Positions 2,353-35,178 of a stretch of DNA of 48,979 bases are shown in pieces. A model generated the notes under the pieces. That model searched no databases. It saw only the letters and a program-made list of their open reading frames with translations, and was not told where the DNA came from. Made by a program: the position numbers and the translations under genes. Positions within the stretch are counted from its first letter, which is position 1, and each line of letters begins with the position of its first letter. Source of the DNA: a virus; the IMG/VR virus record IMGVR_UViG_3300002228_000021, positions 1 through 48,979 of that record, one strand, 5' to 3'.

Positions 2353-2429
2353 GTTCTCGTAGCTCAGCTGGACAGAGCATCGCCCTCCGAAGGCGAAGGT
2401 CGCAGGTTCGAATCCTGCCGAGAACGCCA
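2353..2429 (+). tRNA. tRNA-Arg(CCG)
   Basis: Acceptor GTTCTCG 2353-2359 pairs perfectly with 2419-2425. The anticodon loop CTCCGAA gives CCG, the T stem GCAGG/CCTGC carries loop TTCGAAT, and G2426 is followed by encoded CCA. It reads CGG codons, which are frequent in the G+C-rich cassette that follows. The gene begins 4 nt after the lipoprotein stop codon. Confidence 0.95.
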
Positions 2430-2519: not shown

Positions 2520-2520
2520 G

Positions 2521-2568
2521 ATGGGTGGACGGGTAAGCATCTAATGCTTATTGCGTCCACCCATTTTT
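2521..2568 (+). terminator. strong bipartite intrinsic terminator
   Basis: An outer stem of 11 bp (2521-2531/2554-2564) stacks on an inner stem of 7 bp (2534-2540/2544-2550) and is followed by TTTTT. It ends the tRNA/lipoprotein transcript and isolates it from the TelA cassette. Confidence 0.85.
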
Positions 2569-2572
2569 GTGA

Positions 2573-2601
2573 TTGACAGTTCAACTAGGCTTTGCTATTA
2601 T
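2573..2601 (+). promoter_or_regulatory. sigma70-like promoter of the TelA cassette
   Basis: TTGACA at 2573-2578, a 17-bp spacer and TATTAT at 2596-2601 (an alternative TATAAT lies at 2599-2604). It directly follows the terminator. The leader contains a small hairpin, GTAGA 2608-2612 with TCTAC 2619-2623, and the ribosome site AGAAGGAG. Confidence 0.75.
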
Positions 2602-2649
2602 AATGTCGTAGAGAGATGTCTACACCAACCTAGAGAAGGAGATTCAAAC

Positions 2650-4362
2650 GTGAAGACTGTTTCCGCAACTCTCGGCGCCGTCGCGCTTGCCCTCGCAGTG
2701 AGTGGCACCGCCTCCGCGGCCGACTACGTTAACAGCCCTCCGCTCCGTGATGTGGTGAACACTTCGGTGTCCGATTGCCGTGCGCAGTCGACGTTGAACG
2801 TTCCCATGATTGCATGGGGCGGCGACATTCCGACTCTCGTCGCGAATGGCAACTCGCTCACCACACAATCGGACAGCCTGTTCGAGTTGGTGGGCATCAA
2901 CGCCGAGCTGGAGCGCCAGGACGTGTTCAGTGAGCAGGTGGAAGACTACCTGTCTTGCAAGAGCCCGTTCCTGCGTGGAACGCAAGGCATGCTGAACATG
3001 GCCGCGGACATCACCGAGGCCGACGACCGCACCAAGATGGTCGCCATCTATCAGCTCAGCTGGTCCAACGGCGGTGACGCACTGGTCGTCAAGCCGGGCA
3101 TCGGTACCGTCTCGGATCTGAAGGGCAAGACCATCGCCCTGCAGGCATACGGTCCGCATGTCGACTACATGGCAACCGTGCTGGCTGACGCCGGCCTGTC
3201 CATGAACGACGTCAACATCAAATGGGTCAAGGAACTCACGGCAGCAGACAGCTCGCCGCTGAACGTGTTCGCTTCTGACTCTTCCATCGATGCTGCATTC
3301 ATGATCATTCCTGACGCCCTGGCACTGACCTCGGGTGGCGGAATTGGCACCGGCGCCGAAGGCTCCGTCAAGGGTGCTTCGATCATGCTGTCGACCAAGT
3401 CGGCTAACCGCATCATCTCGGACGTGTATGTCGTCCGAAAGGACTACTTCGAAGCCAACAAGGACCAGGTTCGCAACTTCGTCCATGGTCTGATGCTGGC
3501 TGAAGAGTCTACTCGCGAGCAGCTGAAGGCTGGTGGCACGGCGGCTGACGCGATCTATGCTGCGGCATCTGAGTACCTGCTGGGTGTCGCTGGCGACATC
3601 GAAGGTGCGAAGGGTCTGTGGCTGGATGCTGAGACTACCGGCTTCCGCGGTAACGTGAAGTGGGTGTCCAGCGGAGAGCCGCGTTCTTGGCTCAGTGTCA
3701 ACAACGACGCACAGCCGCTCCTGAAGGCACTTGGGCTGATGTCCAAGCCGTACACCCTGGCACACGCTGGCTGGGACTACGAAGTCTTCAAGGATGGCCT
3801 GAATGATACTGCCGGCGTCGAGAAGCCGAAGTTCAATCAGGCAGAGCTCGCCAAGGTCGTTGACAAGCTGGACAAGACTGGTCAGCTTGGTGACAACTCG
3901 CTCTTCGAGTTTCCGATCTACTTCGAGCCGAACCAGCAGACCTTTGAGGCACTCAACTATCAGGAAGAGTTCCGCAAGGTGATCGGACTGGCTTTGCGCT
4001 ACGGTGGTGCCGTGATCACGGTTGAGGGTCACTCCGATCCGCTCGGCTACCTCCAGAAGAAGAAGGACGGCGCCTCGAACATCGTACTGGCACGTGCCGC
4101 ACAGGCTGCGAAGAACCTGAGCATGGGACGCGCTATCGCGGTGCAGCAGGCTCTGATCAGCTACGCTGATGCTGGTGGCATCACGATGGATGCTTCGCAG
4201 TTCGCTACTCTCGGCAAGGGCATCACTGATCCGGCAACCGGCAAGGATTGCGGTGGTCCGTGTGCTCCGAAGACCGAAGCAGAGTGGCGGTCCAACATGC
4301 GGGTGGTCTTCCGTATCGTCAACGTCGAGGCTGAAGCCAGCGTCTTCACGCCGCTGAACTAA
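2650..4362 (+). CDS. periplasmic substrate-binding protein fused to an OmpA domain
   Basis: A GTG start at 2650 is chosen over the upstream ATG at 2551 because AGAAGGAG lies 7 nt before it and a clean signal peptide follows (cleavage near ASA|ADY, residue 23). Of 570 residues, the first roughly 400 look like an ABC-transporter periplasmic binding protein of the phosphate/phosphonate/NMT1 type (ADITEADDRTKMVAI; VSDLKGKTIALQAYGPH). The last roughly 170 form an OmpA peptidoglycan-binding domain (FPIYFEPNQQTF; VITVEGHSDPLGY; final arginine-rich strand SNMRVVFRI). The protein would be periplasmic and tethered to the cell wall. No permease or ATPase is nearby, so a sensor or scaffold role is more likely than transport. 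First gene of a cassette with VWA, OmpA, XpaC and TelA. Confidence 0.8.
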   Translation: MKTVSATLGAVALALAVSGTASAADYVNSPPLRDVVNTSVSDCRAQSTLNVPMIAWGGDIPTLVANGNSLTTQSDSLFELVGINAELERQDVFSEQVEDYLSCKSPFLRGTQGMLNMAADITEADDRTKMVAIYQLSWSNGGDALVVKPGIGTVSDLKGKTIALQAYGPHVDYMATVLADAGLSMNDVNIKWVKELTAADSSPLNVFASDSSIDAAFMIIPDALALTSGGGIGTGAEGSVKGASIMLSTKSANRIISDVYVVRKDYFEANKDQVRNFVHGLMLAEESTREQLKAGGTAADAIYAAASEYLLGVAGDIEGAKGLWLDAETTGFRGNVKWVSSGEPRSWLSVNNDAQPLLKALGLMSKPYTLAHAGWDYEVFKDGLNDTAGVEKPKFNQAELAKVVDKLDKTGQLGDNSLFEFPIYFEPNQQTFEALNYQEEFRKVIGLALRYGGAVITVEGHSDPLGYLQKKKDGASNIVLARAAQAAKNLSMGRAIAVQQALISYADAGGITMDASQFATLGKGITDPATGKDCGGPCAPKTEAEWRSNMRVVFRIVNVEAEASVFTPLN

Positions 4363-4373
4363 GGAGAGCAACG

Positions 4374-5150
4374 ATGAGAAGCACTCTAGCAGCCCTGGCA
4401 GTGGCGGTACTAGCCCTCACTGCCTGCGAAGAGCAGAACAGCAGCAGCAACGTAGGCAGCAGCAACAGCAGCAGCTCGCAGGGCGCTGCAAGCACGGCGT
4501 CAGTTGATCCTACGAAGCTCAACTGGCCGCCACAGCCCGACAACGAAGTCGCTCTCGCGACTGATTACTTCGAGGAGAACCTCGTGGTGATCCTGGACAT
4601 GTCGGGCAGCATGGCAGAAAGCACCTGCAAGGATTCGTCGACCACCAAGTATGCTGCAAGCATTGCGGCGATCGACTCGTTCTTGAACCAGGTACCGGAC
4701 ACCATGAACGTCGGCTTCGTGGTGTTCGAGGATGGCTCCAGCAAGGTGCGCACACCGCTCGGCAAGGACAACCGCAACAACATCCGACAGGTGTTGCAGC
4801 AGGTCCGTCCGGATGGTGGCACTCCGCTCGGCGGAGCCGTCTACGACGCCTACAACATGCTCACCGCCCAGGCCCAGGCACAGCTTGGTTACGGGCAGTA
4901 CCGCATGTTGATCGTGACCGATGGTGCGGCTTCGGATGAAGGGACACTGGACAAGAACATCAAGTTCATCACGTCTCAGACTCCGATCGAAGTCTTCACC
5001 GCCGGCTTCTGCATCGACAAAGGCCACACGCTGTACCAGCCGGGCATCACTGAGTTCCGCACCGCCGGTAACATCAATGAGCTCAAGGACAGTATGCAGG
5101 CGGTCCTTGCAGAGAGTAACGCCTTCACGCAGGCGTTGACTTTTCAGTAA
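4374..5150 (+). CDS. VWA-domain lipoprotein
   Basis: A 258-aa lipoprotein with lipobox LTAC (Cys18), then a long Ser/Asn linker (residues 22-44) and a von Willebrand factor A domain. The metal-ion-dependent adhesion site is intact: DMSGS at 75-79, the TPLGGAVYDA region supplying the threonine, and LIVTDG supplying the aspartate. VWA domains bind protein partners through a divalent metal. The start has AAGGAG 7 nt upstream, 11 nt after the previous stop. The linker would let the domain reach from the outer-membrane anchor into the periplasm, near the OmpA-fused binding protein. No catalytic function is expected. The end of the gene contains the next promoter. Confidence 0.85.
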   Translation: MRSTLAALAVAVLALTACEEQNSSSNVGSSNSSSSQGAASTASVDPTKLNWPPQPDNEVALATDYFEENLVVILDMSGSMAESTCKDSSTTKYAASIAAIDSFLNQVPDTMNVGFVVFEDGSSKVRTPLGKDNRNNIRQVLQQVRPDGGTPLGGAVYDAYNMLTAQAQAQLGYGQYRMLIVTDGAASDEGTLDKNIKFITSQTPIEVFTAGFCIDKGHTLYQPGITEFRTAGNINELKDSMQAVLAESNAFTQALTFQ

Positions 5151-5190
5151 GACGTGTTATACTAGGAGTGTGAGAGATCACACTCCTAGT
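5136..5190 (+). promoter_or_regulatory. internal promoter with a 13-bp perfect palindrome over the -10/start
   Basis: TTGACT (5136-5141), 16 bp, TATACT (5158-5163) lies across the end of the VWA gene. A perfect inverted repeat, 5161-5173 with 5178-5190 separated by GAGA, begins inside the -10 and covers the predicted start (about 5170). No T-run follows. It could be a repressor operator, or a hairpin ending upstream transcription. Confidence 0.6.
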
Positions 5191-5210
5191 CACACGCAGA
5201 GGAACAGAAC

Positions 5211-5669
5211 ATGTCATTGAGAGAGCAAAAACTCGTCCTCCGTCCGATCAACTTCCTTGGTGCAGCCATCGTGGTTGGCACCGTGTTGTCGGGCGTTTGG
5301 CTGCACACGATTGGTAGCGCCAACGAGGACTACGCATTCAACATCAACTTCAGCAGGGGCGTTGCCGTTGACACTCGTGACATGGCAAAGATCAACGAGA
5401 TCGTCACCCTTGCTGTGACCAACAGCAGCTACGAGATCGTCATCACCGGTCATACCGGTACCACAGGTGATCCGGCTGCAAACAAGGAACTCAGCACCAA
5501 TCGTGCTAAGGAGATCGAACAGCTCTTGCGCGATGCTGGTGTGACCAATCCAATCGTGGTGGTCGGCGCCGGCGGCACCGAGCCGTTGGAGAAGCTCAAC
5601 AACGAATCCGATCGCGACTTCCAAGCTCGTCTGAGCCGTGCGACGGTCAGCGTGGAGAGTGATCTATGA
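5211..5669 (+). CDS. membrane-anchored OmpA-family protein
   Basis: 152 aa with one N-terminal membrane segment (about residues 15-35) and a periplasmic OmpA/MotB-like domain: FNINFSRGVAVDTRDMAKI, then VITGHTGTTGDPAANKELSTNRAKEIEQLL with the conserved NRA..I signature that binds diaminopimelate in peptidoglycan. It would link the inner membrane to the cell wall. Its own promoter and palindrome lie immediately upstream, so it may be regulated separately from the first two genes; the next gene overlaps its stop by 4 nt. MotB-like topology is suggestive, but no MotA-like partner is present. Confidence 0.8.
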   Translation: MSLREQKLVLRPINFLGAAIVVGTVLSGVWLHTIGSANEDYAFNINFSRGVAVDTRDMAKINEIVTLAVTNSSYEIVITGHTGTTGDPAANKELSTNRAKEIEQLLRDAGVTNPIVVVGAGGTEPLEKLNNESDRDFQARLSRATVSVESDL

Positions 5670-6319
5670 TCGGTCACAGCTGGCAAAAGATCGAGCAGAC
5701 GGTCAGCTGGAAAGACTGGAACCCTGGTCTTGACAACGGGCATCTTACGCTAGGCGAAGTGCTCGCGACGCTGCCGGCAAGCGATCCGACGGACATTCCA
5801 TGGATCGTTCGTCTCTTCGAGAATCCAAATCCGCCCATCCGTTTTCCAGACCTGTTCCCCTTGCCGGGTGCGATCAGCCTGGAACGGCACGATGCGATCC
5901 ACTGCCTTCTTGGGCGAGGATTGATGCCACAGGATGAGGCGTTCGTGATCGGATTCACGATGGGAGCCACGAAGAACTGCATGCCTTGGCACTTCACGTT
6001 CTTCCGGTTCATCGCGAAGTACCTGTATCCAAAGCATTACAAGTTCAACGACGAGCACTTGCTTTCGTTGGACCTGGGTTACAACAAGGGCAAGGAATCA
6101 CTCGCAAGCGATCTCGGGCATTTCCCTTTCGAGCGCTTCAAGGATTTCACCCTTGATCAACTACGTGATCGGCTTGGCATCAGCAAGCAAAAGCTCTATG
6201 CGATCTATCGCGTCGAGCGCATGATGCTGCCGCACACAAAAGAAAGTGGACGCCTTGACTATCAATGGATGGCGTCCGACCCGAGCTACATCGAACCGAA
6301 GGAGACTGCAAATGCCTAA
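5666..6319 (+). CDS. Coq4-like protein with intact HDxxHx11E motif
   Basis: 217 aa. The stretch RHDAIHCLLGRG carries H75-D76-x-x-H79 and, exactly 11 residues later, E91. This is the metal motif HDxxH-x11-E that defines Coq4, and the surrounding HALLG-like sequence also fits. Family knowledge: Coq4 binds a divalent metal and acts in ubiquinone biosynthesis (C1 decarboxylation/hydroxylation and complex organisation). Nothing else of the ubiquinone pathway is present here, so a lipid- or quinone-binding role inside the TelA cassette is only inference. No signal peptide, so it should be cytosolic or membrane-peripheral. ATG overlaps the previous stop (ATGA). Confidence 0.6.
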   Translation: MIGHSWQKIEQTVSWKDWNPGLDNGHLTLGEVLATLPASDPTDIPWIVRLFENPNPPIRFPDLFPLPGAISLERHDAIHCLLGRGLMPQDEAFVIGFTMGATKNCMPWHFTFFRFIAKYLYPKHYKFNDEHLLSLDLGYNKGKESLASDLGHFPFERFKDFTLDQLRDRLGISKQKLYAIYRVERMMLPHTKESGRLDYQWMASDPSYIEPKETANA

Positions 6320-6938
6320 CATCCTGCGACTCGGCGGCGGAGCAATGGGCCTGTTCTTGGGCTTGGTGCTCTTCTCGTTCATGAACTCACCCGACGTGTT
6401 TCCGTTCGCGGATACCGTCATTCCGATCGTGCAGGCTGTCCTGTTGGGCGTCGGCATGTTCATGATGCTGCCGCGGCAGATGACCACTGCTGAGATGCTA
6501 CTCCGTGAGTTCAGCGGATCGAAGGTCAGCGCGGAAGAGCTGGACAATGTGATCAAGAAGGGCATGGAGAAAGTTGATGCCTTGCTCGCAGCGGCTGATC
6601 AGATCGAGGACGCTGCCGTGTCACTCAAGATCGAGAAGATCGCCCGCGTTGCGGACCGCATCTTCGAAGGATTCATTGAGGATCCAGACGACATCCGTCG
6701 CTCGCGAGACTTTCTCGATCTGTACCTAGGCAAGACTGTTGACATTGTCAGCAGTTATGCTAAACTAGAATCAAAGGGCGACGCCGCAGGCGCGACCCTA
6801 CAGCAAGTGAAGGAACTCCTCGACACCATCGAGGACGCCTTCGAAGCGCAATACGAGAAGAACCTAGAGGACGATCTTCTCGACCTTAGCGTACAATCCT
6901 CGGTCCTCGAGAAGAAGATCAAACTGAGTGGAATCTAA
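6312..6938 (+). CDS. xpaC: XpaC-like membrane protein (5-bromo-4-chloroindolyl phosphate hydrolysis family)
   Basis: 208 aa. ATG at 6312 is preferred to 6246 because AAGGAGA precedes it by 8 nt. Two N-terminal hydrophobic segments (about residues 8-22 and 32-53) are followed by a soluble, highly charged helical domain with coiled-coil character. This architecture and the position directly before telA match the XpaC family; in many bacteria xpaC and telA are neighbours. The historical name refers to a phosphatase phenotype and does not establish catalysis. Likely an inner-membrane partner of TelA. It overlaps the Coq4-like gene by 8 nt, so translation is probably coupled. Confidence 0.7.
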   Translation: MPNILRLGGGAMGLFLGLVLFSFMNSPDVFPFADTVIPIVQAVLLGVGMFMMLPRQMTTAEMLLREFSGSKVSAEELDNVIKKGMEKVDALLAAADQIEDAAVSLKIEKIARVADRIFEGFIEDPDDIRRSRDFLDLYLGKTVDIVSSYAKLESKGDAAGATLQQVKELLDTIEDAFEAQYEKNLEDDLLDLSVQSSVLEKKIKLSGI

Positions 6939-6948
6939 GGAGACAGAC

Positions 6949-8094
6949 ATGACCACAGCAGTAGCTACCCCGACCGTTGATATGATCGTGGCTGAGGCCG
7001 AGAAGAAGACGATCAATGCACCGGCGGTCATTCCGAGCACCGAAGGCCAGGAGCTCATCGTCGCTCCAGTTGACGGTGAAGTCCAGAAGGACTATGACGG
7101 CCTCATGAAGGCGTTCGAAGGATCCGACACCAACGGCATCCTGATGTACGCAAGCGAGAAGCAGCGCGCTTCGACTGCGGCAGCAGAATCACTGCTCGAC
7201 GGCGTTCGCAACAAGGACCTCGGGCCGGTCGGCACCGGCCTGAACAACATCGCACTGAGCATCAAGGGTTTCGACCTTTCCATGCTCAAGGGCGAACAGG
7301 GCGAGCCGGGATTCTTCGGCAAGCTGATGGGCAAGGTCTCGCCGGTGGCAAAGTGGCTCGAAAGCTACTCCACCGTCGAAGGTCAGATCGATGCCATCGT
7401 CAAGAAGCTGAACGAAGACCAACTCAAGATGATGGAAGACGTTGAGAAGCTCGACCGCATGTTCAACGCCCAGGTCGATCATTTCCGCGGTCTTGAGGCG
7501 GCGATCGAAGCTGGCGATCGTGCCATCGCAGAGATCAACAACAACCTCCTACCGAAACTCCAGAAGAAGGCCGAGGCGTCCACCGACGCGATGGCCGGCG
7601 CCATGTTCGCCGACAAGAAGGACATGCGCGACAAGATCGAGCGTCGAATCCATGACCTTCGCCTGACGCGCGAGATCATCCGGCAGAACCTGCCGGGCAT
7701 CCGTACCACGCAGCAGAGCGATGCCGGCCTCGTCGAGAAGATCGAGACGATCAAGGTCAACACCATTCCGCTGTGGAAGCAGCAGATGGCGATCCTGGTT
7801 GCCGCGGCTCGTACCAAGGGCGTCGCCCAGGCCGTGAACGAAGTGACCGACGTGACCAACGACCTGCTTCGCAGCGGTGCTGAGCTGGTCAAGGACGCCA
7901 ACGTCGAAGCGCGTCGTGCGCTGGAGCGTGGCATCGTCTCGGTTGAGACGATCGAGTACGCGAACGGTCAGATGATCGCGATGATCGAAGAGACGCAGGC
8001 GATCTACGAAGAAGCGAAGACCATGCGTGCTGACGCTGTCGGTCGCCTGGATGCTGCGGCCGCTGCACTGAAGCAGGCGCAGCTGGTCAAGTAA
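6949..8094 (+). CDS. telA: TelA/KlaA toxic-anion-resistance family protein
   Basis: 381 aa, almost wholly helical. Hallmarks of the family are present in order: IVKKLNEDQLKMMEDVEKLD, a run KKDMRDKIERRIHDLRLTREI, then VEKIETIKVNTIPLWKQQM and the closing EVTDVTNDLLR / ERGIVSVETI segment. TelA proteins are associated with tellurite, bacteriocin and envelope-stress resistance; the mechanism is not settled. ATG 6949 follows TAAGGAGACAG, 10 nt after xpaC stops, and is preferred to 6928 inside xpaC. Last gene of the cassette, followed by a stable hairpin. A phage copy is unusual and suggests that infected cells are armoured against envelope stress or competitors. Confidence 0.9.
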   Translation: MTTAVATPTVDMIVAEAEKKTINAPAVIPSTEGQELIVAPVDGEVQKDYDGLMKAFEGSDTNGILMYASEKQRASTAAAESLLDGVRNKDLGPVGTGLNNIALSIKGFDLSMLKGEQGEPGFFGKLMGKVSPVAKWLESYSTVEGQIDAIVKKLNEDQLKMMEDVEKLDRMFNAQVDHFRGLEAAIEAGDRAIAEINNNLLPKLQKKAEASTDAMAGAMFADKKDMRDKIERRIHDLRLTREIIRQNLPGIRTTQQSDAGLVEKIETIKVNTIPLWKQQMAILVAAARTKGVAQAVNEVTDVTNDLLRSGAELVKDANVEARRALERGIVSVETIEYANGQMIAMIEETQAIYEEAKTMRADAVGRLDAAAAALKQAQLVK

Positions 8095-8099
8095 TCAAC

Positions 8100-8123
8100 T
8101 TGGGTGGGCTACGGCCCACCCAA
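8100..8123 (+). terminator. hairpin closing the TelA cassette, without U-tract
   Basis: A perfect 10-bp stem (8100-8109/8114-8123) with the very stable C(TACG)G loop. It starts 5 nt after the telA stop. There is no T-run, so it may act as an mRNA 3'-end stabiliser or a factor-dependent terminator. Confidence 0.55.
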
Positions 8124-8440: not shown

Positions 8441-9331
8441 ATGGCAAGCGTAATTAACAGGCTTGATAAACTGAAACTGATCAATCCGCCGGCATGGCTT
8501 CCGAACAACACGATGTTCGAAGGTTGGACCGGTTCGGTTGCCTATGGCGCATCAAGCGACAACAGCGACATGGATGTGATCGGCTTCTGTATGCCTCCCA
8601 AGGATTTCGTGTTTCCGCACCTTACGGGTGAGATCGCAGGCTTTGGCCAGCAGATCCAGAGGTTCGAGCAATTTCAAACTCATCATGTAAAAGACAAGAG
8701 CACGGGCAAGGAATATGACATCACGGTGTTCAGCATCGTGAAGTTCTTCCAACTCGCGATGGAAAACAACCCAAACATGGTGGACAACTTGTTCCTGCCA
8801 CGTCGGTGTGTGCTCCATTCCACGGCGATCTACGAGCATGTTCGGAACAACCGTCGGTTGTTCCTGCACAAGGGATCGTACCACAAGTTCCGTGGTTACT
8901 CGATGTCACAGATGTCGAAGATCAACAAGGGATCAAATCGGTCAAATCCGAAGCGTCAGGCGTCAATCGACGAGTTCGGATTTGACGTGAAGTTCGCCTC
9001 CCATGTCGTGCGCCTGCTTCTTGAAGCAGAGCAGATCATGGCGACCGGAGATTTGGTCCTCGACCGTGACTCGGAAGTCTACAAGGCGATCCGTAGAGGC
9101 GAATGGAGCCTCGAACAGATCAACAAGTGGGCTGAAGAGAAGGAACGGTCGTTGGAAACTCTCTACGCGGAGAGCAAGCTGCCGGAACGGCCTGACGAAG
9201 AGGCCATCAAGCAGGTGCTCGTCGAGTGCATGGAGATGCACTATGGTAGCCTTGAAGCTGCCGTAGTCGAGCAGGATAAGCACGGTCGCCTCGTGCGTGA
9301 GCTCCAGGAGCTCGTGAAAAGGCATCAGTAA
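8441..9331 (+). CDS. RlaP-type nucleotidyltransferase
   Basis: 296 aa with the DNA-polymerase-beta-superfamily signature GSVAYGASSDNSDMDVIGF at 31-49: the GS pair plus D43 and D45 that would coordinate metal for nucleotide transfer. The longer helical C-terminal region and a third acidic position (EYDITVF near residue 91) match the predicted nucleotidyltransferases often associated with RNA ligases (RlaP). These are common in T4-like phages and may add or repair nucleotides at RNA ends after host anticodon-nuclease attack. No RNA ligase or polynucleotide kinase is in this window, so that role rests on family association. Expressed from its own promoter and followed by a hairpin. Confidence 0.8.
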   Translation: MASVINRLDKLKLINPPAWLPNNTMFEGWTGSVAYGASSDNSDMDVIGFCMPPKDFVFPHLTGEIAGFGQQIQRFEQFQTHHVKDKSTGKEYDITVFSIVKFFQLAMENNPNMVDNLFLPRRCVLHSTAIYEHVRNNRRLFLHKGSYHKFRGYSMSQMSKINKGSNRSNPKRQASIDEFGFDVKFASHVVRLLLEAEQIMATGDLVLDRDSEVYKAIRRGEWSLEQINKWAEEKERSLETLYAESKLPERPDEEAIKQVLVECMEMHYGSLEAAVVEQDKHGRLVRELQELVKRHQ

Positions 9332-9913: not shown

Positions 9914-9921
9914 GACTGGAT

Positions 9922-9929
9922 GATAAATA
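9922..9929 (+). promoter_or_regulatory. late-type box GATAAATA, leaderless arrangement
   Basis: Five bases separate the box from ATG 9935. If the start lies 6 nt past the box, as in T4 late promoters, transcription begins on the A of the ATG. No Shine-Dalgarno is present. Confidence 0.6.
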
Positions 9930-9934
9930 ATAGC

Positions 9935-10489
9935 ATGAAACAGTACATCGCAGGATTGGTTGACGAGACTCGCTTCAAAGCAGCCAAGGCAACACTTGAA
10001 GAAAACGGCGCTAAGAACGTCAGGCAGCACGAGTTCATGAAGACTCTCGTGTACTTTGACACGGCTCCTCAACGCAAGAACCTCGGTGGTGTTCCGATCA
10101 CGGAATACTCCAACGAAGACATCAAGGGCATCTCGGATGCACACGTATCAGGTGTCCTCGCAGCATGGCTCGAGTCACGTACTGATCCAATGACGACGCT
10201 CGAAGACGTGCGTGAAGTCGTTGGATCGTTCCTGTCAAATGCTACGCAAGAGACAGTGAACACCCAGGGTAAAGACCATAACAGAAGGTTCCTGGATGCT
10301 TCCTCAATCCTGTATGGCGATGACACACCTATCCAAGACGTCCCTGAAGACGACGCTCCAATCAACATGCCAGAGGAAGAATACAAAGGTGGTTCTGGCA
10401 AAATCTTTAGCAACAAAAAGGTATTGATTGGAGCAGGTGTCGCAGGACTACTAGCGGTAGCTGGGTTCTTCATATTCTTACAACTGTAG
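9935..10489 (+). CDS. tail-anchored membrane protein of unknown function
   Basis: 184 aa, soluble and charged for about 155 residues, then a single hydrophobic segment at the extreme C-terminus (VLIGAGVAGLLAVAGFFIFL) preceded by lysines: a tail-anchored protein with its bulk in the cytosol. The middle contains VREVVGSFLSNATQETVN and an acidic stretch DDTPIQDVPEDDAP. I do not recognise the family. ATG 9935 is chosen over ATG 9920 because the latter overlaps the late promoter box; this would be a leaderless message. A two-part hairpin follows the stop. Confidence 0.7.
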   Translation: MKQYIAGLVDETRFKAAKATLEENGAKNVRQHEFMKTLVYFDTAPQRKNLGGVPITEYSNEDIKGISDAHVSGVLAAWLESRTDPMTTLEDVREVVGSFLSNATQETVNTQGKDHNRRFLDASSILYGDDTPIQDVPEDDAPINMPEEEYKGGSGKIFSNKKVLIGAGVAGLLAVAGFFIFLQL

Positions 10490-10501
10490 GATAAACATGA
10501 T

Positions 10502-10536
10502 AGCCCAATACCGCACGAATGCTGCGGAGTTGGGCT
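10502..10536 (+). terminator. two-tier hairpin after the tail-anchored protein gene
   Basis: AGCCCAA (10502-10508) pairs with TTGGGCT (10530-10536), and CCGCA (10511-10515) with TGCGG (10523-10527). No U-run follows. Between here and 10668 I see no gene; a weak late-like TCTAAATA occurs at about 10562. Confidence 0.5.
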
Positions 10537-10668
10537 TCCAAATTCCAAAGCATAGACAGATCTAAATAGTGCTTAACAACTAAATTGTTATGCGCTATCT
10601 TGTATGCACGTTCAACAAGAGCGTAATACAAGTAACAGGAGAAGGACCTTATGTAGAGGAGAAATAAC

Positions 10669-11265
10669 ATGTTGACAGGACTTCGTACTCTAGTGCTAAA
10701 CGCGAATTACATGCCGGTTTCGGTATTTCCGCTGGAATCAATCCCAGCAGAAGATGCAGTCACACGCATCCTTAACGGGACGTGTCACGCCGTGTTTGAG
10801 TACGATCGCAAGATCCTGACCCCTAACCTCGAGATGTGCTGGCCGTCGGTCATTGCGCGTAACGATTTGGACAAGATCAATAACAAGGCGGTTAAGCTCA
10901 AGCGTGAGACTCTTTTCTATCGTGACCATGGACTTTGCGCATACTGTGAAAAGCCTCTGGTACTCGGAGAAGTGACATATGACCACATCCGCCCGCAGTC
11001 CATGGGTGGCCCTCACACTTGGGAAAACGTGGTCGCGTCTTGTGGCGCATGTAACTCGAGGAAAGGTAGCCACCTGCCGGTCGGCCAATGGAAGCCGAAG
11101 CACCGTGCTTACAAGCCGGATTACTGGCAGCTAGTTTCCCTCCGTAAGAAGTTCCCGATCACCATCCCAAACGAGGACTGGGTTCAGTTCTTGGGTGACT
11201 GGGACGCAGAAGTAAGGGTTGCGGCTTATGCCGCAACCCACCTTGCCCGAGTGGCGGAACGGTAG
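10669..11265 (+). CDS. HNH endonuclease, free-standing four-cysteine type
   Basis: 198 aa with a complete HNH core: C90-x2-C93, TYDHIRPQSMGG with D105-H106, N120, and C125-x2-C128 for the structural zinc. The N-terminal 80 residues (LVLNANYMPVSVFPLESI) match the broad bacterial/phage HNH family that resembles McrA-like nucleases rather than intron-borne enzymes. The composition is like the neighbouring phage genes, so unlike the 879-1472 HNH gene it looks resident. It may cut host DNA or serve recombination/packaging; the role is not determined. AGAGGAG precedes the ATG. The last 7 codons lie inside the tRNA-Leu(CAA) gene. Confidence 0.85.
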   Translation: MLTGLRTLVLNANYMPVSVFPLESIPAEDAVTRILNGTCHAVFEYDRKILTPNLEMCWPSVIARNDLDKINNKAVKLKRETLFYRDHGLCAYCEKPLVLGEVTYDHIRPQSMGGPHTWENVVASCGACNSRKGSHLPVGQWKPKHRAYKPDYWQLVSLRKKFPITIPNEDWVQFLGDWDAEVRVAAYAATHLARVAER

Positions 11266-11332
11266 ACGCAGCAGGCTCAAACCCTGTGGTCCTTGACTGG
11301 GCGTGGGAGTTTGAATCTCCCCTCGGGCACCA
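11245..11332 (+). tRNA. tRNA-Leu(CAA)
   Basis: Acceptor GCCCGAG 11245-11251 pairs with CTCGGGC 11322-11328, followed by A and encoded CCA. The anticodon loop CTCAAAC gives CAA. A long class II variable arm (around GGTCCTTGACTGGGCG) and T stem GGGAG/CTCCC follow. The 5' end is shared with the 3' end of the HNH gene (21 nt). Confidence 0.95.
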
Positions 11333-11341
11333 AACTCCTCA

Positions 11342-11369
11342 TTGACATTCTAAGCAATCATGCTATACT
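11342..11369 (+). promoter_or_regulatory. sigma70-like promoter, start codon at the transcription start
   Basis: TTGACA 11342-11347, 16 bp, TATACT 11364-11369. ATG 11376 follows after only 6 nt, so the mRNA should be leaderless or nearly so. This promoter would drive the ligase gene cluster. Confidence 0.75.
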
Positions 11370-11375
11370 AATAAC

Positions 11376-11663
11376 ATGAATACGCAACTAGAAGAACGCT
11401 TCGGCTGGTTCTCTTCAAAACAGGCCGAAGTTAGTGGAACCTTTATCTACGAAGACATGGACGGCAACGAAGTCGAAGTCACCGAGGTCACGGAGTGGAC
11501 ACGATGTGAGCCAAATCCTGGTCCCATATGGGATGACTACGTCTGCCTAGGTCCAGTAGGACGGTATGTCAAGGACGGCCGAAGAGGTGCGTTCTACGAC
11601 ATGGAAAAGAGGCTAGAGAAATATGTTCGGTTGGATGAAATCAAAGCCAAGAGAAGATCGTGA
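11376..11663 (+). CDS. hypothetical acidic protein upstream of DNA ligase
   Basis: 95 aa, acidic in the middle (YEDMDGNEVEVTEVTEW) and basic at the end. It looks like a small beta-rich domain. No family recognised. First gene of the ligase transcript, with an apparently leaderless start. Its 3' end overlaps the next gene by 41 nt in another frame. Confidence 0.7.
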   Translation: MNTQLEERFGWFSSKQAEVSGTFIYEDMDGNEVEVTEVTEWTRCEPNPGPIWDDYVCLGPVGRYVKDGRRGAFYDMEKRLEKYVRLDEIKAKRRS

Positions 11664-11922
11664 GCTCGTGGGTTTTTACACCCATATAGTCATCTGGGCC
11701 GATCTCAATAATCTAGAAGAACGGGTCATCATGAACTTCTATCGAACGAACCCTTCGGGCGTCCGCTCGGTAGAAATTGACTACGAAGGAACTCTCGTGA
11801 GAGATTACAAGAAGGGCAACGATCTCGATCATCTCCGGCGCTTGTGGATTGATGCTAACACCCTTCAGCCGAACACGAAATTCGTTGGCAAATACAAGCG
11901 TCTAATGGAGGAAAAACGATGA
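11623..11922 (+). CDS. hypothetical protein overlapping the ligase start
   Basis: 99 aa: MFGWMKSKPREDRELVGFY, then alternating hydrophobic strands and HLRRLWIDANTLQPN, ending in a lysine-rich tail. No recognised family. The start lies within the preceding gene (41-nt overlap) and the stop overlaps the ligase ATG (ATGA), so it is translationally coupled at both ends. The composition agrees with the neighbours and no alternative start exists after the upstream stop. Confidence 0.65.
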   Translation: MFGWMKSKPREDRELVGFYTHIVIWADLNNLEERVIMNFYRTNPSGVRSVEIDYEGTLVRDYKKGNDLDHLRRLWIDANTLQPNTKFVGKYKRLMEEKR

Positions 11923-13241
11923 GGACACAACCGCAAGAAATCATTGCGCTGCTAGAGGGCACAGACTCCAAGCTGGAAAAGCAAGCCATCCTTGAAGCTG
12001 CAATCGACGATGGGCTGGAAGAGTTTTTCGATGGCTTAAGGATGGCTCTGAATCCACTCCATACTTTTGGTGTCAAACAGGTACCAATCAAGAAGGGTGA
12101 CGGGCAAGGACTTCCGTGGACAGCATTCGTTGAGCTACAGGGCAAGCTGGCGACACGAGAGCTCACCGGACATGCCGCACGAGATGCGATCCAGCTTGCG
12201 ATGGATGTCGCAACCGAAGAACAATGGAACGGTTGGTACCGTCGCATCCTGATCAAGGACATGCGGGCCGGCTTTTCCGAGAGCACCGTCAACAAGGTGG
12301 TCAAGAAGAAAGACAAGGCACACTGGGGCATTCCTCTCTTTGAGTGCCAGCTCGCACATCCCAGCGAGAAGTACGAGAAGAAATTGGTCGGCAAGAAGCT
12401 GATCGAAGTCAAGCTCGATGGTGTGCGTGTGGTGACCATCGTCCGCACAGACGGCCGGGTTGAGATGTTCAGCCGGAATGGTCGTAGGTTTGAGAATTTC
12501 GGACACATCGAGGATCAGATCAGTAAAGTCGTCACGGAGGTTCCTCCTCCGTACGACATGGTACTTGATGGTGAGATCATGAGCGACAGCTTCCAGGATC
12601 TCATGACGCAGGTCCATCGCCGTTCTAACGTCAAGGCAGATGACTCCATCCTGTATCTGTTCGACTGTCTTCCGTATCACGACTGGAAGAACGGCGGCTG
12701 CAAGACCACGCAGCTAGTACGTTCGCAAATGACACAAGCCTGGGTCAACACTCACAAGACAAGCCTGCCCAACGTTGATACGCTTGCTTACGAGATGGTT
12801 GACCTTGATACTGATGCCGGCCAAGCACGCTTCAAGGAGATCAACAAGACGGCGATCGAAGGCGGCTACGAAGGCATCATGATCAAGGATACCCAGGCGC
12901 AGTACAAGAACAAGCGCTCAGACGCATGGCTCAAGCTCAAGCCCTTTATCGAGGTTACGCTTGAGGTCAAAGGAACCGAGGAAGGAACGGGCAAAAACGA
13001 AGGCAAGCTCGGAGCCCTGATCTGTGCAGGCACAGACGAAGGCAAACACATCTTCGTGAACTGCGGCGGAGGTTTTTCCGACGAACAACGCGAAGGCTTC
13101 TGGGAAAAGCGTGAATCTCTGATCGGGATGCTGGCTGAGGTCCGTGCCGACGCCATCACGCAAAACCAGGACGGGACGTATAGCTTGCGATTCCCGCGGT
13201 TCAAAGGCTTCCGCGGGTTCGTGCCCGGCGAGAAGATATGA
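11919..13241 (+). CDS. ATP-dependent DNA ligase, T4 gp30 type
   Basis: 440 aa. Nucleotidyltransferase motif I is EVKLDGVR with the AMP-accepting lysine at residue 165. Further motifs are FSRNGRRF (motif Ia/III region), MVLDGEIM (motif III), EGIMIKD (motif IV) and WLKLKP (motif V), followed by an OB-fold C-terminal domain. The protein seals nicks with ATP by way of a ligase-adenylate. Its length and the helical N-terminal domain of about 135 residues match the T4-type ligase that joins Okazaki fragments and serves repair. It overlaps both neighbours by 4 nt. Confidence 0.95.
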   Translation: MRTQPQEIIALLEGTDSKLEKQAILEAAIDDGLEEFFDGLRMALNPLHTFGVKQVPIKKGDGQGLPWTAFVELQGKLATRELTGHAARDAIQLAMDVATEEQWNGWYRRILIKDMRAGFSESTVNKVVKKKDKAHWGIPLFECQLAHPSEKYEKKLVGKKLIEVKLDGVRVVTIVRTDGRVEMFSRNGRRFENFGHIEDQISKVVTEVPPPYDMVLDGEIMSDSFQDLMTQVHRRSNVKADDSILYLFDCLPYHDWKNGGCKTTQLVRSQMTQAWVNTHKTSLPNVDTLAYEMVDLDTDAGQARFKEINKTAIEGGYEGIMIKDTQAQYKNKRSDAWLKLKPFIEVTLEVKGTEEGTGKNEGKLGALICAGTDEGKHIFVNCGGGFSDEQREGFWEKRESLIGMLAEVRADAITQNQDGTYSLRFPRFKGFRGFVPGEKI

Positions 13242-32357: not shown

Positions 32358-32873
32358 ATGAAGACTGACAAGTTCGGTGTTCCTCGTTTTTCTAGCACAG
32401 ACATCTTTGATGCCTTATACCAAGGCAAGATTGATGCGGTAGCAGACATGCTATGTGAGTCATGCGAGGAAATACAGAAATTCAACAAATCGGCAGAAGA
32501 ACTAGGCACAGACAAGATCCGTGTGTACGAACCTCTTGATTGTGGTGTGGAAGATTTTGATCACGCATTGCAATCAGAATGGTTCATGCCAGCTCAATAT
32601 CAAGATCTTGATGTGCTACAACTCTGCTTGGATCGGTGTGATTCAGACGAAGCGAGAGATCGCGTCCGTGATGAATACCGAGGATTTGAACAACGTGACA
32701 TGGTAAACCTGCTAAGGTTCCTTACCTATCTCGTGGACTTCATGCGCAAAGAAAAGATAGTCTGGGGTGTCGGAAGAGGCAGCTCGGTATCAAGCTACAT
32801 CCTATATCTCATAGGTGTGCATAAGATCGATCCAATTCAATATGGCCTAGACTGGCACGAATTCTTGAGATAA
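32358..32873 (+). CDS. stand-alone fragment-like relative of DNA polymerase III alpha
   Basis: 171 aa. Residues 136-171 (WGVGRGSSVSSYILYLIGVH, then KIDPIQYGLDWHEFLR) are the GRGS motif block of bacterial DnaE/PolC palm domains, which binds the incoming nucleotide's phosphates. In DnaE this block is followed by the catalytic PDxDxDF; here the protein ends right before it, so it cannot polymerise. The first 130 residues are helical and not recognised. Similar short proteins occur in T4-like phages of aquatic bacteria. It could compete with the host polymerase for clamp or accessory factors, or bind nucleotides; both are inference. It appears to be leaderless. Confidence 0.7.
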   Translation: MKTDKFGVPRFSSTDIFDALYQGKIDAVADMLCESCEEIQKFNKSAEELGTDKIRVYEPLDCGVEDFDHALQSEWFMPAQYQDLDVLQLCLDRCDSDEARDRVRDEYRGFEQRDMVNLLRFLTYLVDFMRKEKIVWGVGRGSSVSSYILYLIGVHKIDPIQYGLDWHEFLR

Positions 32874-32897: not shown

Positions 32898-33305
32898 ATG
32901 CCACTTAAACAAGCAAGACGCAAGACGCATCGCACGATGCAAGGCAAGCAGGTCGACATGGATCTGCTTCGCAAGAGGAACGAGCTAACGCTCGCAGTAG
33001 GAAACCAGCGCGTAAACGCACGCGGAGATGAACTCGGCCCGAATGGGAAGATCGTCCGCAAGCGTGAGGCGATCATGCATGATCATTACGCATCACAGGC
33101 TGGATCCGTGCCTGACGAGACCAAGCCACGCCAGACAAGAGGTTCACTCGTTGAAAGCCTCTCAGAAGGTGCCGACCTTGACGAAAAGCCAAAGCGTACA
33201 CGCAGCAAGAAAGAACCGGCTGTCGCAGAAACGGCCGATGCTCCCACAGCATCCGAACTAGCTGAATGGGAAGAAGACGACGACGGAAACTTCGTGAGGA
33301 AATAA
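32898..33305 (+). CDS. conserved-type T4-like phage protein, basic
   Basis: 135 aa. The first half (GKQVDMDLLRKRNELTLAVG, then NQRVNARGDELGPNGKIVRK) is the part I recognise as strongly conserved among T4-like phages of aquatic bacteria; the second half is an acidic, low-complexity linker. Function unknown; possibly a virion or transcription-associated protein. TACAGGAGG precedes the ATG. The stop overlaps the next ATG. Confidence 0.7.
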   Translation: MPLKQARRKTHRTMQGKQVDMDLLRKRNELTLAVGNQRVNARGDELGPNGKIVRKREAIMHDHYASQAGSVPDETKPRQTRGSLVESLSEGADLDEKPKRTRSKKEPAVAETADAPTASELAEWEEDDDGNFVRK

Positions 33306-33754
33306 TGAAGAAACAGTACGGTACATTACGTCCGGTACAGGACCGAGTTATCGTGAAAGATATGCACTTCGGTGAACGCAAGACTGCTGGAGGACTTATC
33401 ATACGCTCCGACGATGGGAAGGATTATGGTATCCGCCCTCGTTGGGGCAAGGTCTACGCAAAAGGACCGATGAACAAGGATGAATACCAAGTAGGTGATT
33501 GGGTCCTTGTTGAACACGGTCGTTGGACACGAGGAGTTGATTTCGTGGACGACGACGGTGAAGAAATCACCCTTCGGATGGTGGAAGCACAATCCATCTT
33601 GATGATGCAGCCAGGAGGGACGTGTCCCGAAGAACTATCACTCGGTGAAGATCTAATCGCCAAGAATAGGAACCCTGGGGAAGGCTTCATCAAGCCAACT
33701 CGGTACCTTCCAGGTGAACCAGGTTATATCGCAGAAATGAATGGTGAACTATGA
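33305..33754 (+). CDS. GroES-like cochaperonin
   Basis: 149 aa. Cpn10 features: LRPVQDRVIVKDM at the N-terminus, a mobile-loop region with ERKTAGGLII (the IIL/GLII tripeptide docks into GroEL), WGKVYAKGP, and EYQVGDWVLVEHGRW before a closing strand. This is the layout of T4 gp31, which replaces GroES so GroEL can fold the large capsid protein. It carries a C-terminal extension of about 45 residues with no known counterpart. ATG 33305 (TAATG overlap) is preferred to the longer frame from 33266. Confidence 0.8.
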   Translation: MKKQYGTLRPVQDRVIVKDMHFGERKTAGGLIIRSDDGKDYGIRPRWGKVYAKGPMNKDEYQVGDWVLVEHGRWTRGVDFVDDDGEEITLRMVEAQSILMMQPGGTCPEELSLGEDLIAKNRNPGEGFIKPTRYLPGEPGYIAEMNGEL

Positions 33755-34155: not shown

Positions 34156-34492
34156 GGAATGGGACGACTTTAACCAAGTCGTTGGAATCTTACAGAGATT
34201 CGTTCCGTCCGATGTCGGACTTCCAGCAGATCCAGATAGCTGGCATCTTGGCCAACAGATGGATCATCCGACTCTTAAGACATTTGCTCGTCGTGAGCAA
34301 TGGGATCATTACGAATCACACATGATCGTACTCGGGATCTCATATCATGCTTATCTCGCGCCTTACGCAAAGATGGCTTCTCTCTTTGATCCCAAGAAAC
34401 TAGCAGAAGAAATCATCGGAGTACAACCGATGAAACCTCCCAAGACGCTTCTAAATGCTCTCTACGGGAGATATGGAAAGGAACCAAAATGA
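34073..34492 (+). CDS. hypothetical protein overlapping mazG
   Basis: 139 aa. The first 30 residues are Ser/Thr/Lys-rich and lie in the 83-nt overlap with mazG; the only ATG is there. The remainder looks like a folded helical protein (WDDFNQVVGILQRFVPSDVG; WDHYESHMIVLGISYHAYLA). No family recognised. It is coupled to the BI-1 gene by an ATGA overlap. Confidence 0.6.
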   Translation: MSVSSRNATQEDSSTSTEAKTEKQGTSKEWDDFNQVVGILQRFVPSDVGLPADPDSWHLGQQMDHPTLKTFARREQWDHYESHMIVLGISYHAYLAPYAKMASLFDPKKLAEEIIGVQPMKPPKTLLNALYGRYGKEPK

Positions 34493-35178
34493 GTACAGCA
34501 ACACAAACCGCTACAAGTTATGACGAAGGTATGCGTCAGTTCATGCTCAGCCTTTTCAATCAGACCGCCGTTGGCGTCGGCATCACGGGTCTGGTTGCAT
34601 GGATCGTAGCGAGCGTACCGGCACTGTCTGCCGCAGTATTCGGAACCCCTCTAGTATGGGTTGCGATGTTCGCGCCGCTTGGAATGATCCTCTGGTATTC
34701 GTTTGCCGGCCGCGGCAAGATGAGCCTCAGCGGCATCCGAACGTTCTACTATGCGTTCGCAGCAGTCATGGGCATCTTCATGGCCAGCGTGTTCATGGTT
34801 TACACTGGAATGAGCATCGCAAGGGTGTTTTTCATCACCTCTGCCGTTTTTGGCGCAGCGAGCTTGTACGGGTATACCACGAAACGTGACTTGACGGCGA
34901 TGGGATCGTTCTTGATGATCGGTCTGATCGGCATCATCATCGCAGCCATCGTGAACATCTTCCTTGCATCATCCGCGCTGATGTTTGCTATCAGTGTCAT
35001 CGGCGTCGTAAGCTTCACTGGACTGACCGCGTATGACACACAGTATGCCAAGGAAGTCTACGGAAGGACGAGTGGCGAGGAACGAGACAAGGGCGTCTAT
35101 GACGTCGCGCTGAGCTTGTACCTCAATTTCATCAACCTGTTCAACATGCTGATGAGCTTGCTCGGACAACGCGATTGA
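34489..35178 (+). CDS. Bax inhibitor-1/YccA family membrane protein
   Basis: 229 aa with six to seven hydrophobic helices and the family's characteristic ends: an N-terminal YDEGMRQFMLSLFNQT and a C-terminal FTGLTAYDTQYAKEVYG followed by YDVALSLYLNFINLF. BI-1 proteins are pH-sensitive cation/calcium leak channels; bacterial YccA binds and inhibits the membrane protease FtsH. Phage copies are rare. By inference it could protect phage membrane proteins or regulators from FtsH, or keep the membrane intact until lysis. Host-type alphaproteobacterial sequence suggests capture. ATGA overlaps on both sides place it in the mazG transcript. Confidence 0.9.
   Translation: MSTATQTATSYDEGMRQFMLSLFNQTAVGVGITGLVAWIVASVPALSAAVFGTPLVWVAMFAPLGMILWYSFAGRGKMSLSGIRTFYYAFAAVMGIFMASVFMVYTGMSIARVFFITSAVFGAASLYGYTTKRDLTAMGSFLMIGLIGIIIAAIVNIFLASSALMFAISVIGVVSFTGLTAYDTQYAKEVYGRTSGEERDKGVYDVALSLYLNFINLFNMLMSLLGQRD

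Follow-up and report, generated by a model that had tools for sequence, protein, structure and literature searches.

What does a bacteriophage do with a compact set of genes whose products appear made for the envelope of a bacterium? This question is raised by a virus sequence of 48,979 nucleotides (IMG/VR record IMGVR_UViG_3300002228_000021, positions 1 to 48,979; in the following the window), in which six consecutive, tightly packed open reading frames (ORFs) on the + strand, 2650-8094, form a cassette. It encodes a solute-binding protein (SBP) fused to an OmpA domain (P1, SBP-OmpA), a VWA-domain lipoprotein (P2), a short OmpA-domain protein (P3), a Coq4-like protein (P4), XpaC (P5) and TelA (P6). 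Judged by sequence comparison, the cassette is a phage-borne form of a widespread bacterial operon, devoid of the ATP-binding cassette (ABC) transporter genes, and not an invention of the phage. Its most likely job, to which we give an even chance, would be to preserve the envelope of the infected cell, and its energised state, over a long infection and against agents acting on the envelope.

The families named in a preliminary description of this DNA held: Pfam matches were obtained for NMT1, VWA, OmpA (P3), XpaC and TelA, and the family models did not reject the XpaC, TelA and VWA calls. P1 scores 25.3 bits with Pfam NMT1 (cut-off 20.5) and 4.4e-14 with NCBIfam SsuA_fam, its PDB profile matches being TauA (2.7e-6), a nitrate-binding protein and Omp38 (6e-4). 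Its OmpA domain, at 22.9 bits, lies under the PF00691 cut-off of 27.2; the motifs GHSD and LSxxRA are present in the window and kept in 91/96 and 94/96 homologues, respectively. P2 matches Pfam VWA_2 (5.9e-13) and contains the metal-site segments DMSGSM, GGTPLGG and VTDG, with DxSGSM being kept in 90 of 94 VWA homologues. P3 (Pfam OmpA, 50.2 bits) has one transmembrane segment at residue 13, carries a Gly replacing the canonical Asp after GH(T/S) (GHTG) and, unlike its usual bacterial counterpart, a second SBP-OmpA, has no SBP domain. P5 reaches 90.5 bits with PF10112 (cut-off 29.8), with two hydrophobic segments by hydropathy, and P6 reaches 281 bits with PF05816 (cut-off 30; profile positions 5-328 of 332) and 3.8e-55 with phrog_5890. 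TelA gave only chance coiled-coil matches against PDB sequences. The parts cover the wall, the outer membrane (through the lipoprotein), the inner membrane and the cytoplasm, and the trans-envelope layout assumed earlier stands, proteins suited to every envelope layer being encoded.

The Coq4-like call was the hardest one and holds as "like": P4 is Coq4-like, not Coq4. Searches with P4 itself in Pfam, PHROGs, NCBIfam, PADLOC and PDB sequences gave no match. The putative metal site HDxxH-x11-E is invariant in every P4 homologue found, and the homologue from Micavibrio shows a sub-threshold match to Pfam Coq4 (PF05019; 16.8 bits, E 0.0042, cut-off 22.9). A fold search starting from an AlphaFold model (predicted local distance difference test, pLDDT, 78) returned Coq4-type structures (3msq, 6e12) as its top three PDB matches with probabilities of 0.90, 0.84 and 0.60, none of them being significant (E 0.39-1.2, template modelling score 0.33-0.39).

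To place the cassette among bacteria we ran an SBP-OmpA profile against one genome per species, took 80 of 148 confirmed loci (SBP-OmpA 35-53% identical among the matches listed) and read the operon content with family hidden Markov models built from these loci. They are distributed over Pseudomonadota, Thermodesulfobacteriota, Myxococcota, Bdellovibrionota, Spirochaetota, Bacteroidota, Elusimicrobiota, Verrucomicrobiota, Lentisphaerota and several Patescibacteria and contain a stereotyped operon composed of SBP-OmpA, VWA, a second SBP-OmpA (the usual form of the second OmpA protein), a membrane coiled coil at the XpaC position, TelA or a PspA-like protein, an SBP lipoprotein, an ABC permease and an ABC ATPase, with the Coq4-like gene present in some. 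Where at least 8 kb of downstream sequence was available (52 loci), all 52 have VWA, 50 have the second OmpA protein, 46 have TelA or its PspA-like alternative, 40 the SBP lipoprotein and 39 the ABC genes; the VWA gene starts at a median of 14 bases past the SBP-OmpA gene. TelA and PspA-like proteins alternate at one operon slot. In three gammaproteobacterial operons the slot proteins score 220-229 bits, far above the TelA cut-off, and in Verrucomicrobiota/Lentisphaerota and two huge phages the slot holds a PspA-like protein with PspA_IM30 matches below cut-off (E 0.001-0.02). P6 itself has no PspA match in Pfam, TelA filling here the slot of a PspA/Snf7-type protein.

The cassette order was not found only in the window: it recurs in a second phage, described below, and in Micavibrio sp. 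UBA1672, where one contig (L046) carries SBP-OmpA, VWA, OmpA, Coq4-like and XpaC in the order of the window and then ends, and another (L106) starts inside TelA and continues into SBP lipoprotein, permease and ATPase, the two contigs being unjoined in the assembly. Thus the Micavibrio operon shares the first five genes with the window, has TelA on the partner contig and, in contrast to the window, extends into the SBP lipoprotein and the ABC genes. The bacterium G228 (L105) has the first five cassette genes without TelA or ABC genes, and Planktomarina (L071) has five genes rearranged, the TelA-XpaC pair elsewhere and no ABC genes. In the SBP-OmpA tree both phage sequences fall into a seven-row clade with the Micavibrio, L105 and L071 relatives (SH-aLRT 98), and the huge-phage loci L003 and L012 are placed with relatives from Verrucomicrobiota/Lentisphaerota (support 100); as the phages are split between two bacterial clades, at least two captures have to be assumed. 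The suspected bacterial origin is thereby borne out by operon, Micavibrio order and tree, the branching of the phage cassette within an alphaproteobacterial-type clade pointing clearly to bacteria as its source; Micavibrio we take to belong to the Alphaproteobacteria by its GTDB placement. Related loci are rare near Micavibrio, with 1/142 genomes of the order and 3/385 of the class. A plasmid search found SBP-OmpA on Vibrio plasmids only and Coq4-like matches on two unrelated plasmids.

The second phage, a 76-kb contig (IMG/VR 3300012036_000220, L002), repeats the six genes, their order and their regulatory skeleton, which excludes chance ORFs. Its cassette proteins are 61-83% identical to those of the window, core phage genes being 68-83% identical between the two, synonymous sites are saturated, and the codon use of the cassette is adapted to each phage. 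A divergence close to that of the core genes together with saturated synonymous sites argues for the cassette being an old, selected resident, and on these grounds we regard it as a long-resident, selected part of the phage lineage. The seventh gene, coding for a membrane protein, is intact in L002 (7241-7840), of which the window keeps a remnant. The L002 seventh-gene protein is distantly related (23%, E 4e-5) to one encoded at L003 5175-5828, upstream of the operon of the 595-kb huge phage, although the operons of L002 and L003 stem from different bacterial clades.

The regulatory signals described earlier, a terminator, a promoter and hairpins bounding the block, are present, except that the block has two promoters and not a single one, and the cassette may therefore give rise to two overlapping transcripts. 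L002 has a terminator at the equivalent place with a sequence different from that of 2520-2568. The L002 counterpart of the hairpin at 5161-5190 has 12 bp with compensated base changes in both arms (z -5.9). No T runs follow this hairpin or the one after TelA (8100-8123), which makes it more likely, as far as the sequence can tell, that they serve as 5'-end stabilisers or operators rather than terminators. The block is G+C-rich as reported (cassette genes 0.54-0.60, outside 0.48); the adjoining nucleotidyltransferase and ligase genes are at 0.53-0.54. Third-position G+C tracks each phage, with 0.69-0.78 in the window and 0.24-0.34 in L002 for the cassette and 0.69 and 0.23, respectively, for the nucleotidyltransferase gene. 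Since the neighbours are G+C-rich too and the copy in L002 shares the A+T-rich composition of that phage, the G+C content is no sign of recent arrival. A recent transfer deduced from the high G+C content was rejected, the L002 cassette being at the low G+C content of its own phage.

A related arrangement has been published: Ravi et al. 2024 (mSystems, PMC11237479) describe bacterial PspA/Snf7 (ESCRT-III) operons whose further genes code for an AAA+ protein, an ABC ATPase, a permease and a PBPB-OmpA protein, and the authors suggest that membrane remodelling and solute transport are linked. The cassette resembles these operons in the SBP fused to OmpA beside a membrane-associated coiled-coil protein. 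It differs in TelA and XpaC replacing PspA and the transmembrane coiled coil, in the absence of ABC and AAA+ genes, in the short OmpA protein standing for the second SBP-OmpA and in the added Coq4-like gene. The huge-phage loci L003 and L012 closely match the Ravi-type operon. The text of that study mentions no TelA, XpaC, VWA or phage case (PMC11237479), and in the open-access literature we came across neither the TelA form nor copies carried by phages. The earlier picture of a unique phage assembly does not stand, the cassette being one form of an operon that is conserved widely among bacteria and mostly includes an ABC importer, and having a published PspA/ESCRT-III relative.

Several other large phages carry the system or parts of it. 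In LR756511 (595 kb) and IMG/VR 3300017388_000001 (436 kb) the PspA-type operon is complete, ABC genes included, and IMG/VR 3300035698_035310 (359 kb, L112) has the TelA type with ABC genes. In L112, a large phage, TelA, SBP-OmpA, VWA, a second SBP-OmpA and a membrane coiled coil stand together, which puts it among the closest systems to that of the window; unlike the window it keeps the SBP lipoprotein, ABC permease and ATPase, has no Coq4-like gene, places TelA first and shows its SBP-OmpA gene broken into two overlapping frames (9938-11691), which may represent a frameshift, an assembly error or a programmed shift. In Bacillus phage G an ABC permease and ATPase lie near two SBP-OmpA genes (gp243, gp245, gp249, gp250), and Lak phages have one SBP-OmpA with ABC genes. 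IMG/VR 3300026302_000005 (376 kb, L114) carries OmpA, XpaC and TelA, and Sinorhizobium phage Phosso flotillin, XpaC and TelA. Of four carrier contigs searched with the T4 capsid profile three score above the cut-off and L002 gives a weak partial match. The nearest relatives of the window's clamp loader (56%) are those of PA5oct-type Pseudomonas phages of 285 kb, and the window phage itself may therefore be a large phage. We tentatively consider, as a possibility short of an even chance, that several unrelated large-phage lineages each captured the same trans-envelope system (SBP-OmpA, VWA, TelA or PspA-like protein, with or without the ABC importer) as a general strategy, a virus-encoded envelope-maintenance machine that would keep the cell serving as giant-phage factory intact and would be the phage counterpart of the phage-shock response.

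How could the six products maintain an envelope? We propose a model according to which they would assemble into one trans-envelope complex. Exported SBP-OmpA would grip the peptidoglycan, its solute-binding domain sensing or collecting a small anion-like solute, and the VWA lipoprotein would dock onto it via its metal site, so that both, held at the wall, could report on or brace the periplasm. The membrane-anchored OmpA protein would tie the inner membrane to the wall, and XpaC, with its two transmembrane segments, would bring TelA to the cytoplasmic face, the XpaC-TelA pair acting on the inner membrane and TelA standing in for the PspA-like membrane-repair protein of the sister operons. The Coq4-like protein might handle a membrane lipid at the cytoplasmic face. 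We infer that the cassette may in this way protect the cell against toxins, competing phages or damage to its envelope. In Listeria, nisin susceptibility rises four-fold and tellurite susceptibility two-fold when the telA homologue is disrupted (PMC12791056), and in Lactococcus xpaC-telA are members of the envelope-stress regulon CesSR (PMC3139573). These Firmicutes pairs (lmo1966-1967; llmg_1115-1116) comprise the same two families as in the window, are adjacent and envelope-stress regulated, and are described with no SBP-OmpA, VWA, OmpA or Coq4-like partners; the links of TelA and XpaC to nisin and cell-wall stress come from Gram-positive bacteria (PMC12791056, PMC3139573).

Neither an ABC permease nor an ATPase is encoded in the 49-kb window, and no such permease in the 76-kb L002 contig, both contigs being fragments. 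The window copy being without permease and ATPase suggests that import is not its main job, and the ABC-less versions in bacteria (L105, L071) support envelope maintenance as well, as do the phage TelA loci in which XpaC is accompanied by OmpA (L114) or flotillin (Phosso). Several points weigh against envelope maintenance: the ABC genes of the window phage could sit outside the window, the SBP domain and its usual ABC partner suit solute uptake as well as sensing, a common slot of TelA and PspA in the operon does not make them equivalent, the structure model of TelA (pLDDT 54) is too poor for a comparison with PspA, and P4 does not reach the Pfam Coq4 cut-off.

Solute uptake is also the basis of an explanation we consider unlikely, nutrient scavenging, in which the peptidoglycan-held SBP gathers sulfonate, nitrate or a similar small solute and passes it to an ABC importer encoded by the host or, outside the window, by the phage, with the other parts organising and energising the importer. 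The SBP domain is indeed nearest to binders of taurine, nitrate and sulfonate, and bacterial operons as well as phages L003, L012, L112, phage G and Lak pair ABC permease/ATPase with SBP-OmpA; yet the ABC genes are missing from the window and the L002 contig, bacteria also have versions without them, and TelA, XpaC, VWA and Coq4-like proteins have no known place in importers. We rate it as quite improbable that the cassette serves superinfection exclusion or as armour against phages or bacteriocins, a wall-anchored assembly stopping the DNA entry of rivals or pore formation. This would fit the surface-layer topology, the effect of TelA on Listeria nisin tolerance (PMC12791056) and the weak PADLOC match of P3 to the MotB-like ZorB (2.9e-5). 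Zorya shares with the window a MotB/OmpA-type bridge between inner membrane and wall, but PADLOC found no ZorA motor and no ZorC/D/E effectors in the window, and an operon residing with an importer in the chromosomes of many phyla is a poor fit to a dedicated exclusion system.

Resistance to tellurite or other toxic anions, the literal sense of the TelA name, is very unlikely: the family name and the effect of the Listeria mutant (PMC12791056) speak for it, but this effect is only two-fold, that on nisin is larger, and reductase, methyltransferase and TerC/TerD genes are absent here. We give equally little credence to the cassette being passenger cargo, i.e. a transferred bacterial operon of no benefit to the phage. 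The clear bacterial origin and the truncation already seen in the adjacent seventh gene and the subtilase of the window phage would agree with it. However, both phages have all six ORFs intact, with 61-83% protein identity between them and synonymous sites at saturation, and with adapted codon use and retained promoters and hairpins; this points to purifying selection on the cassette, which largely refutes this explanation.

Table 1. Cassette genes, regulatory signals and flanking features in the window.
Feature	Position	Strand	Evidence or remark
tRNA-Arg(CCG), directly upstream of the cassette	2353..2429	+	same tRNA directly upstream in L002
Intrinsic terminator, insulates cassette from tRNA cluster	2520..2568	+	fold z -6.9, T run
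Sigma-70-type promoter TTGACA-17-TATTAT	2573..2601	+	11/12 consensus
P1, SBP-OmpA fusion	2650..4362	+	start GTG; Sec signal peptide, SsuA/TauA/NrtA-type solute-binding domain, C-terminal OmpA domain
P2, VWA-domain lipoprotein	4374..5150	+	lipobox LTAC; metal ion-dependent adhesion site (MIDAS) D-x-S-G-S, T, D intact
Internal promoter TTGACT-16-TATACT, end of VWA gene	5136..5163	+	kept in L002
13-bp perfect hairpin at -10/start region of internal promoter	5161..5190	+	z -5.1
P3, OmpA-domain protein, inner-membrane-anchored, MotB-like topology	5211..5669	+	OmpA 3.3e-13
P4, Coq4-like, putative metal site HDxxH-x11-E (H75, D76, H79, E91)	5666..6319	+	
P5, XpaC / Halogen_Hydrol, two N-terminal transmembrane segments, then cytoplasmic helical part	6312..6938	+	PF10112 1.7e-25
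P6, TelA (toxic anion resistance family), cytoplasmic helical protein	6949..8094	+	PF05816 1.5e-83
10-bp hairpin after TelA	8100..8123	+	z -3.8; L002 same place, different sequence, z -3.1
Seventh-gene remnant, membrane protein, first ~22 codons	8141..8206	+	71% identity over 21 residues to L002, then lost
RlaP-type nucleotidyltransferase, directly downstream	8441-9331		PF10127 2.7e-20; conserved in L002

Further genes of the two phages were noted. The window ORF at 9920-10489 is an in-frame, internally deleted version of a subtilase encoded in L002 (12163-13449; PF00082 7.5e-35); its entire catalytic domain is gone and the ends are joined between KGISDA and HVSGV, representing either a loss in the phage or an assembly artefact. 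In L002 a gene for a CsgG-type outer-membrane secretion lipoprotein (10286-11200; PF03783 1e-8) precedes one for a repetitive exported protein (11224-12102), curli-subunit-like by eye; both are absent from the window phage, and the pair sits in a T4-like phage. Further envelope-related genes of the window are a 17-kDa surface antigen/glycine-zipper lipoprotein inside the tRNA cluster (1885-2349; PF16998 2.2e-9) and a phage-encoded Bax1-I family membrane protein (34489-35178; PF01027 2.3e-52), which fits the envelope theme and is no proof of it. An HNH endonuclease gene between tRNA genes (879-1472; phrog_10822 8.9e-26) is A+T-rich and likely a homing gene. A 171-residue ORF (32358-32873) matches a small piece of bacterial DNA polymerase III alpha (PF07733 5.2e-11), and 33266-33754 encodes a co-chaperonin GroES-like protein (PF00166 5.8e-6).

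As a summary, a conserved and functionally blank bacterial operon of eight or nine genes, present in many phyla including Patescibacteria, is now tied to viruses keeping a reduced form of it under selection. The phage copies may hint at a core made up of SBP-OmpA, VWA, OmpA, XpaC and TelA, with the ABC importer as an optional part, and the swap of TelA and PspA-like proteins at one slot is a hint that the poorly named "toxic anion resistance" proteins act in membrane maintenance. The carriage of the system by this phage and by several very large phages suggests that these viruses maintain or reinforce the envelope of their host cell, which, if true, would make the cassette a virus-encoded envelope-stress system.

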